Below, piece by piece: positions 5,268-27,409 of a DNA stretch of 64,000 nucleotides. The position numbers were made by a program, and so were the translations under genes. Origin of the DNA: Cronobacter universalis NCTC 9529 (lineage in GTDB: Bacteria; Pseudomonadota; Gammaproteobacteria; Enterobacterales; Enterobacteriaceae); contig NZ_CP012257.1 of NCBI RefSeq assembly GCF_001277175.1, positions 992,001-1,056,000 on the forward strand, in the 5' to 3' direction. Positions within the stretch are counted from its first letter, which is position 1. Every line of letters begins with the position of its first letter. The notes under the pieces were generated by a model, which searched no databases, was not told where the DNA came from, and saw nothing but the letters and a program-made list of their open reading frames with translations.

Positions 5268-7179
5268 AAATCCTGTGCCCCGGATTGTCGCAGGACAGCG
5301 CGTTGGCGGCGCAGATAAGCGACAGATGGCTTAAGCCGAGCGGCATGTTGCCGCGCCAGCCGCCGGTGCGGGTGTCGTACATCTCGTTAAAGATCTGCAC
5401 GTTGCCGCTCTGACACAGGGTGTCGAGAATTTCTTTCATCTCCTCCTGCGCCTGGTCGCGCTTTTTCAGCTCCGCCAGCGCCTCGACGCGCCAGAAGGCG
5501 CAGGCCACAAAGGTGCTCTCTTCCACCTCGACGCCCGAGTAGCGGTAGAGCATCGGGCTGTTATGGCCGAGTTCCTGATAAATCGCCTCAAGTGTGGATA
5601 GCATCCGCTTGCGGTTAATTTTGCTGCCGTAGTAGTGGGTGAGGCTGATGGCGGCGTCGAGCGTCTCGCTGCCCGCGTAGAAGGTGTACGCCTGGCGGCT
5701 CTCGCTCCAGCAGTGCGTCTCAATCCACTCGCTGATGCGGTCGCGCTCGCGCGCCCAGCGGCCTTTCCATGTCGGCTCGATATGGCCAATCTCCGCCAGC
5801 GCCACGGCCTGATCGAGCGCCAGCCAGCAGGCCATTTTCGAGTGAGTGTAGTGACGCTCTTCGGGCAACTCCCAGATGCCGGAATCGGGCAGCCGCCAGC
5901 GATCGGCGCAGCGGTTCGCCAGATGGCCCAGCAGGCGCGAGGTCGCGAGATCGAGCACATGCCCCATCTCAACGAACAGCCGCGCGGTGCCGAGCAGATC
6001 GCCATACATGCTCGGCTGAAACTGATCGCGCGCGTTATTGCCGACCCGCACCGGCTGCGTGCCCTGGTAGCCTTCGAGCTGCGGGTAGCGCTCCTCCGGC
6101 ACCAGCCCGCCTTCCAGCGTATAACAGGCGCGCAGGTGGCCGTCGTGGCGGATAATCGTCGAGGTAAGCCAGGAGAACGCCGCCTTACAATCCTCAAGCG
6201 ACCCCAGATAGACGAACGATTTGATAATCAGGCAGGCGTCGCGCACCCACGCGTAGCGGTAGTCATAATTTTTCTCTTTGCCGATGCCCTCCGGCAGCGA
6301 GGTCGTGGCGGACGCCGCCAGCGCCCCGGTCGGCGCGTACCAGAGGAATTTGAGCGCCAGCGCCGAGCGCTTCACATGATGCTCAAACGGGCCGTTCCAG
6401 CAGAGGTTTTCCGCCCAGTCGCGCCAGGCGTGGTCGCTGGTTTCGATGCGCTGGTCGATTTTCTCAAGCGGCGGCACCGCCAGCGGCTCCTTTTCGGTCG
6501 CCACCAGCGCTATCAACGAGCGCGAGCCGGGCGAGGTGGTGAGCGTGCCGCGCATACCCGTATCGTCGCAGTATTCGGTCTCCACATCATCCGTACAGCG
6601 CACGGCGACCATTAAATCGTCGAGGTGGAAAATCGTTTTCTCCTGGACGTGATCCAGCCACGGCGAACAGGTGCGGGCGCGCGTGCCGGGCTTAAAAACC
6701 ACATTCAGACGCACATGGCCCTTAATGCCTTCGACGCGGCGCGCCATCTCGCTCCAGGGCAGGCGTCCGGCGAATGTACTGTTGATGGATTCGGTAATCA
6801 GTACTTCGCCGGAGGCGGTTTTATAGCGCGTCTCCAGCACGTTGCTGTTCTCGCGGTAGCTGCGCGACATCTCCCACTCGTCTTCGGGCGTCAGCGCGAA
6901 GTAACCGCCCAGGGGCGCGTCGAGAATGCGGTCAAACAGCGGCGGCGAATCGAGATTCGGCACGCACCACCAGTCGATTGCGCCGTCCGGCGCGATAAGC
7001 GCCACCGAGCGGCCTTCGCCGATGACGGCGTAATCGCCGAGACCCGCGTAGCCGTTCTCGCGCGCGGGGGAGCGGTAGGTCTTATTTTTCACAGGCGGGA
7101 TAATCCTTTCTCTGAACAGGCGCGGGCGCCTGCGACGAAACGGTAATGCTTTAAGCGTAGACCATGAGAGCATGGTCAC
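5266..7179 (-). CDS. Glycoside hydrolase family 15 protein (glucoamylase/trehalase-like)
   Basis: This is a 637-residue protein. After a basic N-terminus of about 35 residues come a GH15-associated N-terminal domain (GLGDYAVIGEGRSVALIAPDGAIDWWC) and an alpha/alpha-barrel domain. The barrel carries DYRYAWVRDA at about residue 310 and DSGIWELPEERHYTHSKMACW further on, both typical of bacterial GH15 enzymes. The family hydrolyses alpha-glucosidic bonds and includes glucoamylases and trehalases. The substrate cannot be read from the sequence. There is no signal peptide, so it is probably cytoplasmic. It stands alone between two convergent or terminated units. Confidence 0.85.
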   Translation of the reverse strand: MTMLSWSTLKALPFRRRRPRLFRERIIPPVKNKTYRSPARENGYAGLGDYAVIGEGRSVALIAPDGAIDWWCVPNLDSPPLFDRILDAPLGGYFALTPEDEWEMSRSYRENSNVLETRYKTASGEVLITESINSTFAGRLPWSEMARRVEGIKGHVRLNVVFKPGTRARTCSPWLDHVQEKTIFHLDDLMVAVRCTDDVETEYCDDTGMRGTLTTSPGSRSLIALVATEKEPLAVPPLEKIDQRIETSDHAWRDWAENLCWNGPFEHHVKRSALALKFLWYAPTGALAASATTSLPEGIGKEKNYDYRYAWVRDACLIIKSFVYLGSLEDCKAAFSWLTSTIIRHDGHLRACYTLEGGLVPEERYPQLEGYQGTQPVRVGNNARDQFQPSMYGDLLGTARLFVEMGHVLDLATSRLLGHLANRCADRWRLPDSGIWELPEERHYTHSKMACWLALDQAVALAEIGHIEPTWKGRWARERDRISEWIETHCWSESRQAYTFYAGSETLDAAISLTHYYGSKINRKRMLSTLEAIYQELGHNSPMLYRYSGVEVEESTFVACAFWRVEALAELKKRDQAQEEMKEILDTLCQSGNVQIFNEMYDTRTGGWRGNMPLGLSHLSLICAANALSCDNPGHRI

Positions 7180-24739: not shown

Positions 24740-24828
24740 GCGCCGCTTTAGGGGATCGTGCGGCAGCTTTTGAAAAAGCGCGCGGATTGTGGGTTAATAA
24801 CATTTTGTTTACATTCGGAGCTGCCGCG

Positions 24829-25857
24829 ATGGCCGGGACCGCCGCCCCCTTTTCGTTTCGCGAAACTATGCATCTGCGCGCGCAGGAAAAAGCGCTGCGC
24901 CTTGATGCAGACCAGACGCGGCTCATCAGTGAACTGGAAAGCCTCGCCGCGCCGCTGCTGGCGGGACGCGCGCGCTTCGCCGGGCTCTATGTCTGGGGCA
25001 GGCCGGGGCGCGGCAAAAGTTTTATCGTCGATAATTTCTTTGCCTCGCTGCCGCTGGCGGCGAAAAAGCGCGCCCACTTTCATGACTTTTTCCGCGAGCT
25101 GCATCGGCGCATGGTGGATAAACCGCTGGAGCAGGCATTGCGCGGGCAGCTGGGCGACGCGCGGCTGCTCTGCTTTGACGAATTCCATCTGCACGATCCG
25201 GGTGATGCGATGCTCGCGAAAAAGCTGTTAGAGGTGGCGCAGGCGATGAATATTACGCTGATCCTGACCTCCAACTATTCGCCGCGCGAGCTGCTAGCGC
25301 ATCCGCTCTACCATGAGCTGTTTGTGCCGTCTATCGCGCTTATCGAGCGAGAGATGACAATTTTCGCGCTCAACGGCGAGCGCGACTATCGCCTTGACGC
25401 CGGGAGCGACGCCGGACGGTTCAGCGAGGGCGCGTGGCTGCGGCCCGGCACGCCTGAACAGCGTGACGCGCTCGGGCTTGCCGTGGCGCACGGCAACTTT
25501 GTGGTCACTGCCGGTTATCACACTTTTCATGCCGCGTCGCCGCCAGACGCGGTGCTGCATTTTACCTTTGCCGGAATATGTGAAGCACCGACGGCAGTCA
25601 TGGATTATTTAACGCTGTGTGAAACCTATTCCTGCTGGTTTATTGATAATGTTCCGCTGCTCGCGCGCGTCAGCCCCGCGGCGGCGCAGCGGTTTATTAA
25701 TCTTATTGATGTGCTTTATGATAAACAGCGCCAGTTATTTATTTCGAGCTCGTATTCGGTGGCGGAAATTATTCACGGTGTGGCGCTGGATGATATCGGG
25801 CGTACTGCCAGTCGGCTGGCGCAATTACCGGTAATACAAAATCCTGTTACGGGTTAA
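24829..25857 (+). CDS. AFG1/ZapE-family ATPase
   Basis: A 342-residue P-loop ATPase. Walker A is WGRPGRGKSF at about residue 60, Walker B is LLCFDEFHLHDPGDAM, and the sensor-like segment is LTSNYSPREL. These match the AFG1/ZapE family. ZapE is a division-linked ATPase in E. coli encoded elsewhere (near rplM), so this looks like an additional, more diverged member. The ATG at 24829 has GGAG at 8 bases. The longer frame begins with TTG. It stands alone, next to the hok locus. Confidence 0.8.
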   Translation: MAGTAAPFSFRETMHLRAQEKALRLDADQTRLISELESLAAPLLAGRARFAGLYVWGRPGRGKSFIVDNFFASLPLAAKKRAHFHDFFRELHRRMVDKPLEQALRGQLGDARLLCFDEFHLHDPGDAMLAKKLLEVAQAMNITLILTSNYSPRELLAHPLYHELFVPSIALIEREMTIFALNGERDYRLDAGSDAGRFSEGAWLRPGTPEQRDALGLAVAHGNFVVTAGYHTFHAASPPDAVLHFTFAGICEAPTAVMDYLTLCETYSCWFIDNVPLLARVSPAAAQRFINLIDVLYDKQRQLFISSSYSVAEIIHGVALDDIGRTASRLAQLPVIQNPVTG

Positions 25858-25890
25858 TATCATTGCCCTGCGCCGAAGTATAATAAAATC

Positions 25891-25902
25891 GGGTGCCTGA
25901 GG
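25891..25902 (-). repeat. 3' fold-back (fbi-like) element of the hok mRNA
   Basis: The 12 bases GGGTGCCTGAGG (plus strand) are the exact reverse complement of 26240-26251, at the 5' end of the hok transcript. Perfect pairing of mRNA ends is the hallmark of the fbi-tac interaction in hok/sok systems. Confidence 0.7.
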
Positions 25903-25952
25903 AGCATAAAACCGCCAGTCAAATCGCGGGGATTGCTCCCCGCGTCAGACGC

Positions 25953-26105
25953 TTACTCTCTGGATTTACAAGCCAGTGAAGCGACAACCTCCATACTCGC
26001 GCCCCGCAAGCGCAGCTCGCAAAGCGTTTCCCGTGAAAGGGTGGTGAACACTAATACCGTCACACAAACAATAATAATGCACCAGATAAAAGTATTGTCC
26101 TTCAT
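25953..26105 (-). CDS. hok: Hok/Gef-family type I toxin
   Basis: A 50-residue small membrane toxin, too short for usual gene calls. It has an N-terminal KDNT, a single membrane helix (FIWCIIIVCVTVLVFTTL), then SRETLCELRLR and EVVASLACKS. This matches the Hok pattern, which has a Trp-Cys near the N-terminus, a conserved Leu-Cys-Glu after the helix and a Glu-Val block near the end. Hok proteins depolarise the inner membrane. The ribosome site AAGGAGAA is at 26112-26120 on the minus strand. Expression is expected to depend on the overlapping mok frame and to be blocked by sok RNA. All parts of the locus are present. Confidence 0.85.
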   Translation of the reverse strand: MKDNTFIWCIIIVCVTVLVFTTLSRETLCELRLRGASMEVVASLACKSRE

Positions 26106-26163
26106 AGCCATTCTCCTTGCCGTCAGGCGAGTAAGAGGCTAACATATGAACTGTCGGGTTCAT
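25966..26163 (-). CDS. mok: mok-like translation-coupling ORF overlapping hok
   Basis: A 65-codon frame starts 58 bases before hok, spans the hok ribosome site and overlaps most of hok in another frame. In known hok systems, ribosomes translating mok open the hok site, so the product itself need not be functional. Its start codon and a GAGG ribosome site lie inside the region covered by the opposing sok RNA. Confidence 0.65.
   Translation of the reverse strand: MNPTVHMLASYSPDGKENGYEGQYFYLVHYYCLCDGISVHHPFTGNALRAALAGREYGGCRFTGL
26117..26145 (+). promoter_or_regulatory. Predicted sok promoter
   Basis: TTGCCG and TAACAT are spaced by 17 bases, reading against hok/mok. Transcription would begin near 26152. 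Confidence 0.55.
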
Positions 26164-26203
26164 GTGTCGGCCTCGGGTTAAGTAATTAACTCGGGGCCTT
26201 CAT
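26152..26203 (+). ncRNA. sok: Predicted sok antisense antitoxin RNA
   Basis: About 52 bases transcribed opposite to hok/mok. It covers the mok start codon and ribosome site with full complementarity and ends in a 13-bp hairpin (26169-26198; arms beginning GGCCTCGGG and ending CGGGGCC, with two G-U pairs) followed by TTCATCTTT. The size, position and end hairpin match the Sok RNA of known systems. The start is predicted from the promoter. Confidence 0.7.
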
Positions 26204-26222
26204 CTTTCCGGAACCTGCATAA

Positions 26223-26251
26223 TGCCTGAAACCAGAAAGCCTCAGGCACCC
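26223..26251 (-). promoter_or_regulatory. tac-like 5' hairpin of the hok mRNA
   Basis: TGCCTGA (26223-26229) and TCAGGCA (26242-26248) form a hairpin at the 5' end of the hok mRNA. The bases 26240-26251 can pair instead with the mRNA 3' end (25891-25902). This matches the tac stem that controls folding and activation of hok mRNAs. Confidence 0.6.
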
Positions 26252-26258
26252 GCCGCGA

Positions 26259-26264
26259 ATAATA
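26259..26264 (-). promoter_or_regulatory. Predicted -10 element of the hok promoter
   Basis: TATTAT on the minus strand, about 8 bases before the inferred mRNA start near 26251. The -35 element is weak. Confidence 0.45.
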
Positions 26265-26410: not shown

Positions 26411-27409
26411 CTACTCTTCCTTCGCGGCGTGGATCTTGCCGCGAAACACCCAGAACCCCCAGCTGTTATAGATAAGCGTAATGGGCACAAAGACGCCGAA
26501 CGCGGTAAGCATCAGCTTCTGCGTGGCGGGCGGCGCGGCGGCCTGAATAAGCAGCAGATTCGGCGGCAGAATAAACGGAAAAACGGCCAGCAGCATCCCG
26601 CCAAATGCGGCGATAAACAGTAAGAGCGTCATCGCGAGCGGCAGGAAATCGCGCCGCTGGCGCAGCGTCAGCATCACGCCCAAAAACGCCAGCAAACCCA
26701 TCGCCACCAGCGGCCCGCTCCAGCGCCACAGTTGCAGGTGCAGCCGGTAGGTCTCATTGAGCTGCACCGTCCAGACCAGCAGCCCCGCCAGCAGCGCGGC
26801 GGTGAGAATGACAAGCCACAGGGCCTGACGCCGCGCCCACGCGTTGAGTTCTCCTTCGCAGCGCCAGATAAGCCAGCACGCGCCGAGCAGCGCATAGCCG
26901 ACGCTGAGCGCTATTGCACAGAAGACCGAAAAGGGCGACAGCCAGTCCATCGGGCCGCCGGTAAATCTGGCGCCGTCATGCGTGATGCCTTCAACCCATG
27001 CGCCCATCGTCGCGCCCTGGCTTAACGACGTCAGCCAGGAGCCTGCGATAAACAGCGCGTCAAACAGGCGCGGGCGCAGGTGGCGGTACTCAATCGCCAC
27101 CCCGCGCGCAATCATCGCCAGCAGCATGATATAGACCGGCAGGTAGAGCGCGCTGTAGAGGATGCTGAAAGCGACGGGGAACATCGCCAGCAGCGCGCCC
27201 GCGGTCAGCACCAGCCAGGTTTCGTTGCCGTCCCAGACCGGCAGCAGCGAAATATTCATCTGCTGGCGCGCCTGCGGCGACTGAAACGGCGCGAGCAGCC
27301 CCACGCCAAGATCCGCGCCGTCGAGCAGTACGTAAATCAGCACGCCTGCGGCGAGCGCGCCGGCGCAAAGCAGCGTTAACAGCGGCAGTGAAAGCAGCAG
27401 TTCAGTCAT
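26411..27409 (-). CDS. cioB: Cytochrome bd-type quinol oxidase subunit II (CioB)
   Basis: A 332-residue membrane protein of the CydB/CioB family with about eight helices. It has the conserved YVLLDGADLGVGLLAPF start and the VWDGNETWLVLTAGALLAMFP block. It partners subunit I, whose gene overlaps by 8 bases. The pair oxidises quinol and reduces O2 to water, forming a proton gradient. It is the last gene of the formate dehydrogenase operon. No CydX-like small subunit was seen directly downstream. Confidence 0.9.
   Translation of the reverse strand: MTELLLSLPLLTLLCAGALAAGVLIYVLLDGADLGVGLLAPFQSPQARQQMNISLLPVWDGNETWLVLTAGALLAMFPVAFSILYSALYLPVYIMLLAMIARGVAIEYRHLRPRLFDALFIAGSWLTSLSQGATMGAWVEGITHDGARFTGGPMDWLSPFSVFCAIALSVGYALLGACWLIWRCEGELNAWARRQALWLVILTAALLAGLLVWTVQLNETYRLHLQLWRWSGPLVAMGLLAFLGVMLTLRQRRDFLPLAMTLLLFIAAFGGMLLAVFPFILPPNLLLIQAAAPPATQKLMLTAFGVFVPITLIYNSWGFWVFRGKIHAAKEE

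Follow-up and report, generated by a model that had tools for sequence, protein, structure and literature searches.

The window, a stretch of 64,000 nucleotides from Cronobacter universalis NCTC 9529, harbors a complete hok/mok/sok type I toxin-antitoxin locus at positions 25890-26264, with hok on the minus strand. It is very probably a chromosomal locus of the HokB clade, controlled in the manner of plasmid R1, in which the cysteine at toxin residue 29 is encoded in the DNA, most simply as the outcome of a reversion. Cys29 in Cronobacter would then hard-wire the state that is otherwise reached by mRNA editing, the editing motif having been lost. Both this natural change back from editing to a DNA-encoded cysteine within the HokB clade and a strict editable-or-cysteine rule at Hok residues 29 and 46 are inferred computationally.

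Protein family, RNA family, gene layout and a Sok stem and fbi/tac pairing that are both conserved support the identification as hok/mok/sok. A complete locus had been the original prediction, and every part of it was found in place (Table 1). The two family searches suggested along with it also gave matches: the 50-codon Hok-like frame at 25953-26105(-) scored 45.1 bits (E=7.6e-12, cut-off 22) against Pfam HOK_GEF PF01848, and Rfam RF01794 matched the leader at 26251-26100(-) over its full model length with 107.3 bits (E=2.1e-23), the gathering score being 59 bits. An alternative in-frame ATG at 26111 would extend Hok to 52 amino acids. The remark that the gene is too short for usual annotation proved partly right. 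An NCBI subfamily model scores the protein below its cut-off (67.7 against 73), but homologues do carry Hok names: 12 were found in the databases, and the 11 with source names all bear Hok names from Cronobacter. Hok-family toxins have indeed been annotated in Cronobacter genomes (PMC6267090), and a hok gene, ESA_RS13590, which may be this or another hok locus, is reported from RNA-seq data for C. sakazakii BAA-894 (PMC9455513). The locus would be expected to produce hok and Sok transcripts and to kill.

Table 1. Features of the hok/mok/sok locus and its neighbours (window coordinates).
Feature	Position	Strand	Remark
zapE-like gene	24787..25857	+	convergent neighbour in 7/7 genus genomes; common to Franconibacter
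tac	25890..25902	-	at the 3' end of hok mRNA; matches fbi perfectly over 13 bp
hairpin CGCGGGG...CCCCGCG between hok and tac	25925..25944	-	stem bases same in 11 aligned rows
hok	25953..26105	-	50-codon membrane toxin of the HokB clade, from PF01848, tree and residues
hok codon 46	25968..25970	-	TGT (Cys)
hok codon 29	26019..26021	-	TGC (Cys) in TTGCGAG
mok reading frame	25966..26163	-	65 codons; overlaps hok in another frame
mok ribosome-binding site GAGG	within 26164-26176	-	upstream of mok
Sok promoter TTGCCG-17-TAACAT	26117..26145	+	both hexamers in 6/7 genus orthologues
Sok antisense RNA	26153..26208	+	ends placed by homology to the K-12 sokB annotation
Sok terminator stem	26169-26198	+	13 pairs
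alternative 5' hairpin GCCUGA/UCAGGC	26223..26248	-	competes with fbi/tac
fbi	26240..26252	-	at the 5' end of hok mRNA; pairing partner of tac
hok mRNA -10 box TATTAT	26259..26264	-	6/7 genus orthologues; TACTAT in G001
cydB-like oxidase subunit	26411..27409	-	upstream neighbour in 6/7 genus genomes

The kind of locus is ordinary. Chromosomal hok/sok loci are common in the genus and the family, and hokB of E. coli K-12 is another, so completeness in itself is no surprise. The window's genome has six hok/sok loci, all on its large contig, and the seven genomes of the genus Cronobacter have 3 to 7 matches each; among 198 Enterobacteriaceae genomes RF01794 was found in 69 and PF01848 in at least 65. 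An origin from a mobile element was considered and rejected: a search of a phage collection with the locus gave no match, and matches in a plasmid collection span at most 66% of the query, the top three being records of 4.8-4.9 Mb that are chromosome-sized though listed as plasmids. Between ghrB and glyS (genome G000, 4101000-4108000), the chromosomal region of hokA in E. coli K-12, there are two hok loci in tandem that belong to other Hok types. A second tandem hok/sok pair, about 0.5 kb apart and both with Cys29 and Cys46, is located beside gltP (G000, 3776000-3782000).

Direction of change at residue 29

In E. coli, the TAC codon of HokB Tyr29 is reported to be converted to a cysteine codon by TadA, giving a more toxic protein for which a C29-C46 bond was proposed; the editing was described in E. 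coli and Shigella strains (PMC12214031). TadA is reported to need the seven-base motif YTACGAA, which occurs in exact form in 68.8% of 381 published sites (PMC12255301), and further editing data are found in PMC13170351 and PMC13017025. The window Hok has Cys9, Cys14, Cys29 and Cys46, all encoded in the DNA, and no editable tyrosine codon at residue 29 or 46, the respective contexts being TTGCGAG and TTGTAAA. The Leu-Cys-Glu motif, first noted only as a mark of the family, turned out to be the informative part. After Cys29 the codon is GAG in four of five Cronobacter copies and GCG in G001; G003 and G005 also have GAG.

One of the closest known systems is hokB/mokB/sokB of E. coli. It shares with the window locus the clade, the layout and Cys9, Cys14 and Cys46, and the best E. 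coli matches cover two thirds of the query at ca. 70% DNA identity. It differs in its chromosomal site, between ydcA/yncP and trg, and in having Tyr29 as TAC within CTACGAA, the TadA-edited site. The locus of Franconibacter pulveris (G105, which is KK211221.1, identical over 6,029 bases) has the same zapE-like gene in the same orientation and is the nearest relative in the tree. Unlike the window it has Tyr29 as TAC within TTACGAA, and mok and hok share one frame. E. coli hokA, interrupted by IS150 in K-12, resembles the window gene in that Cys29 and Cys46 are both DNA-encoded, but it belongs to a different clade and lies beside cspA/glyS.

The tree was built without the codons concerned, the motif bases being masked. 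The seven Cronobacter genes, with Cys29, are sister to two Franconibacter genes with Tyr29 (support 98/91). Next outward are E. coli hokB and the genes of three near-identical genomes, also with Tyr29; at this node the window hok groups with E. coli hokB with support 100/98. Three further Tyr29 genes follow, and the whole HokB clade has support 98/96. Residue 29 requires two changes on the masked tree (bootstrap range 2-2), which amounts to one gain of tyrosine and one return to cysteine in Cronobacter. A tree with the Tyr29 rows as one clade was rejected (p-AU 0.0125, for a group that was not named before the trees were seen). As the window gene, lying inside a group of Tyr29 genes, has Cys29 in its DNA and no longer has the motif, reversion would be the simplest explanation.

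The direction of change is taken from parsimony, two changes against three, and a smaller set of rows required three changes and left the direction open. It is thus possible, though we hold it to be distinctly less probable than a reversion, that the Cronobacter line never lost Cys29 and that Tyr29 arose independently in Escherichia, in Franconibacter and in a third group. This would agree with the occurrence of Cys29 in all 151 distinct sequences outside the 13-row HokB clade (158 minus the 7 of Cronobacter). Against it stand the extra change and the well-supported mixed clade of Tyr29 and Cronobacter genes (98/96), recovered with the motif bases masked. No report of a return to Cys29 in Cronobacter was found in the literature searched, most subscription papers lying outside its scope.

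Conservation in Cronobacter and variation of mok

The locus is present in all seven genomes of the genus. Five of the seven copies have an open hok frame, all four cysteines and both Sok promoter hexamers. In G003 a stop is found at hok codon 9 in combination with a well-conserved leader, and the copy in G001 has drifted, with loss of Cys9 and Cys46 and an Rfam score of 57.8 bits, below threshold. The locus may be dispensable, as this stop and this drift suggest. One could go further and regard it as a decaying remnant whose parts are still recognisable, whose toxin no longer matters and whose Cys29 is the product of drift, which we consider unlikely. Besides the two damaged copies among the seven, such a reading would account for dN/dS values above 1 in all five computed pairs with G001 (dN/dS as a whole differs between pairs, from low to high, with few changes), for a C. 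malonaticus homologue, representing a cluster of 53 sequences, that is altered at W8 and L28, and for a C. muytjensii database homologue, outside the set of 164 sequences described below, that has Arg29. It does not sit well with the five copies that keep frame, cysteines and promoter hexamers, nor with the retention of the Sok stem and of the fbi/tac pairs, the latter with a compensating change.

The cydB-like gene was rejected as a fixed neighbour, being adjacent in six of the seven genomes; in G006, which retains both the zapE-like neighbour and the intergenic leader, cydB is not found within 1.5 kb. The Franconibacter pulveris orthologue adjoins the same convergent zapE-like gene, and about four ORFs (named by eye) lie there between cydB and hok. 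A wider linkage of zapE and hok was rejected as well. A search of 392 genomes gave 22 zapE-like loci (E up to 1e-60), six of which have hok within 1.5 kb, five from Cronobacter and one from Franconibacter; none of the 15 loci outside these two genera has it. In a second Franconibacter genome no hok was found at the zapE-like locus, where the contig ends, and a hok gene lies near the end of another contig.

The predicted mok-like frame overlapping hok is present at 26163-25966, with GAGG upstream, and its frame and length vary among species. It has 65 codons in two of the seven genus copies (that of the window and that of G004). In three others (G002, G003 and G005) it stops at the start codon of hok after 20 codons, and it has 13 codons in G006 and 96 in G001. 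Such varied ends fit the view that what counts is the translation of mok and not a Mok protein; drift would also give the same variation. In Franconibacter, mok and hok form a single ORF of 68 codons (6302-6508 of its stretch). In K-12, two small coding sequences are annotated on the opposite strand, yncP (1377-1445) overlapping hokB at its 3' end and ysaE (2901-2972) doing the same for hokA. Inspection of the window by eye revealed no ATG-started counterpart of these.

Codons at residues 29 and 46 across the Hok family

A set of 164 distinct Hok sequences was obtained from 264 matches after removal of 15 incomplete (truncated, split or frameshifted) sequences and 85 duplicates. The set is drawn from 204 loci, comprising the best-scoring loci of the genome searches, five E. 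coli stretches and 106 further stretches, and represents part of the Hok matches in the 198 genomes. Residues 29/46 are Cys/Tyr in 99 sequences, Cys/Cys in 59, Tyr/Cys in five and Tyr/Tyr in one, with no other combination. The tyrosines at these two positions are encoded by TAC in 105 cases and by TAT in one, which is the drifted G001 copy; other tyrosines of the same proteins are encoded by TAC 39 times and by TAT 68 times. The exact TadA motif YTACGAA surrounds 101 of the 106 tyrosines. Where glutamate follows Tyr29 or Tyr46, its codon is always GAA (101/101), as compared to 51 GAA and 160 GAG for glutamate elsewhere. A second TAT, for Tyr29 in ATATGAG, was seen in a broken G001 copy with stops, which accounts for two of the dropped rows, and 15 further sequences add 13 tyrosines at residues 29/46, all within the motif.

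Fisher's p on these 164 sequences ignores kinship. In an independent-pairs test on supported branches (10 pairs), GAA after Tyr46 was concordant in an average of 7.8 pairs and opposite in 0.1, with a median p of 0.008; for the pyrimidine before the codon the same test gave no significance (median p 1). A stronger hairpin at Tyr46 sites was looked for and not seen: mean 17-base folding energies are -0.39 kcal/mol at Tyr46 sites and -1.14 kcal/mol at Cys46 sites.

The fixed TAC and GAA at residues 46-47 might instead reflect mRNA folding or an overlapping reading frame rather than editing. We regard this as improbable, even though the preceding pyrimidine lacks support in the pair test and folding is weaker at Tyr46 while published edited sites tend to be folded (PMC12255301); by another measure, pairs in a 5-bp stem, Tyr46 sites exceed Cys46 sites (3.6 vs 2.9). 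Against it speaks that the same context recurs at the other position: Tyr29 lies in YTACGAA in 6/6 sequences, whereas Cys29 is followed by GAA in 72 and GAG in 79. The Tyr46 rows show free variation at codon 29 (TGC in 46, TGT in 53) and at Glu30 (GAA in 49, GAG in 45), and transcripts of hokB, hokC, hokD and hokE of E. coli are reported to be edited (PMC12214031).

Whether mRNA recoding in bacteria restores an ancestral residue or diversifies the proteome was posed as an open question in PMC10244538. That paper takes up the mixing of Tyr and Cys at residue 46 and cysteine as the probable ancestral state of residue 29, crediting Bar-Yaacov 2017; the hokB cases were judged not informative enough, and better ancestral inference was asked for. 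An editable Tyr29 in Franconibacter and Cys29 in Cronobacter, next to the same zapE-like neighbour, would provide natural alleles for this question, and together with the codon pattern over 164 sequences this allele pair makes it testable. A broader proposition, to which we would give even chances, is that both disulfide cysteines (29 and 46) are required across Enterobacteriaceae, supplied either by the DNA or by an obligatorily editable TAC within the exact TadA motif, that the HokB-type toxin of Cronobacter went back from an RNA-edited Tyr29 to an encoded cysteine, and that Hok editing is restorative. If so, Cronobacter would represent a natural experiment in which Hok editing became unnecessary.

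The antisense RNA and folding of the hok mRNA

Comparison with annotated sokB of K-12 places the expected start of Sok at 26153. An opposing RNA with a 17-base-spaced promoter, a 13-bp end hairpin and a position over the mok start had been foreseen, and all three features were recovered: Sok spans the mok start and its ribosome-binding site. The promoter has 8 of 12 consensus bases by our own count and is absent from the listing of a promoter scan with a threshold of 9 consensus bases. The terminator scan returned one hairpin against 0.9 in shuffled sequences, which is weak alone. These scans by themselves are no better than shuffles; it is conservation that decides. Eleven loci including the one in the window were aligned: seven from the genus and one each from Franconibacter, E. 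coli K-12 and two genomes taken as Escherichia. For the 12 stem pairs that were scored, 132/132 cells can pair on the Sok strand and 107/132 on the mRNA strand, which indicates that selection acts on the antisense RNA. Sequence and covariation together point to an antisense Sok gene with its own promoter and terminator.

The fbi/tac match is the sole inverted pair of at least 10 bases listed in 571 bases. The predicted link between the mRNA ends is real, its length being 13 bp (25890-25902 with 26240-26252) instead of 12, compared with 7 bp in E. coli hokB. Of the 11 aligned rows, 10 keep the first seven fbi/tac pairs intact, and G001 keeps six of the seven. Conservation of this fold-back pair in relatives, the lack of which had been named beforehand among the refuting conditions, was found, including one of the seven pairs in which both sides have changed, from U-A to C-G, in Franconibacter and G144 (taken as Escherichia). 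More broadly, 143 of the 164 sequences had a recognised leader pattern and enough downstream DNA, and in 96 of these the reverse complement of the leader hexamer occurs downstream of hok, as compared to 5.7 expected from shuffles. The full-length hok mRNA folds with its ends paired at z=-9.2, none of 100 shuffles folding as low. In the leader alone, the 5' end folds into a local hairpin in the minimum-energy structure (the centroid differs), and the six pairs of the alternative 5' hairpin, likewise predicted, occur in all 11 loci, 1 of 66 cells being U-G. A small ORF with inverted repeats arising by chance would suit the shuffle-level scans and is otherwise refuted by the family matches (E 2.1e-23 and 7.6e-12), synteny and covariation, so that it deserves next to no credence.

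The hok/mok/sok system of plasmid R1 is controlled by an fbi/tac lock, 3' processing, Sok and coupling to mok. The mechanism at the window locus appears alike, R1 serving plasmid stabilisation and the window locus being chromosomal. The pairing elements and their conservation can be read from the alignments, while transcription, 3' processing, mok-hok coupling and toxicity are proposed by analogy with R1 and E. coli HokB. The hok mRNA would fold with paired ends, hiding the mok start, and be silent. Trimming of the 3' end would free the leader for translation of mok and, through mok, of hok. Binding of Sok to the mok start would lead to destruction of the duplex with hok mRNA; if Sok fails, Hok would enter the inner membrane and collapse the membrane potential. 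In the Cronobacter lineage, Hok with both Cys29 and Cys46 would be made without editing.

The match of the Rfam 'sok' model RF01794 (26100-26251) lies on the strand of the hok mRNA and not on that of Sok, and strand labels taken from this model are therefore reversed for Sok. The same is seen in K-12, where the RF01794 match is on the minus strand and annotated sokB on the plus strand (1567-1718 of the K-12 stretch).
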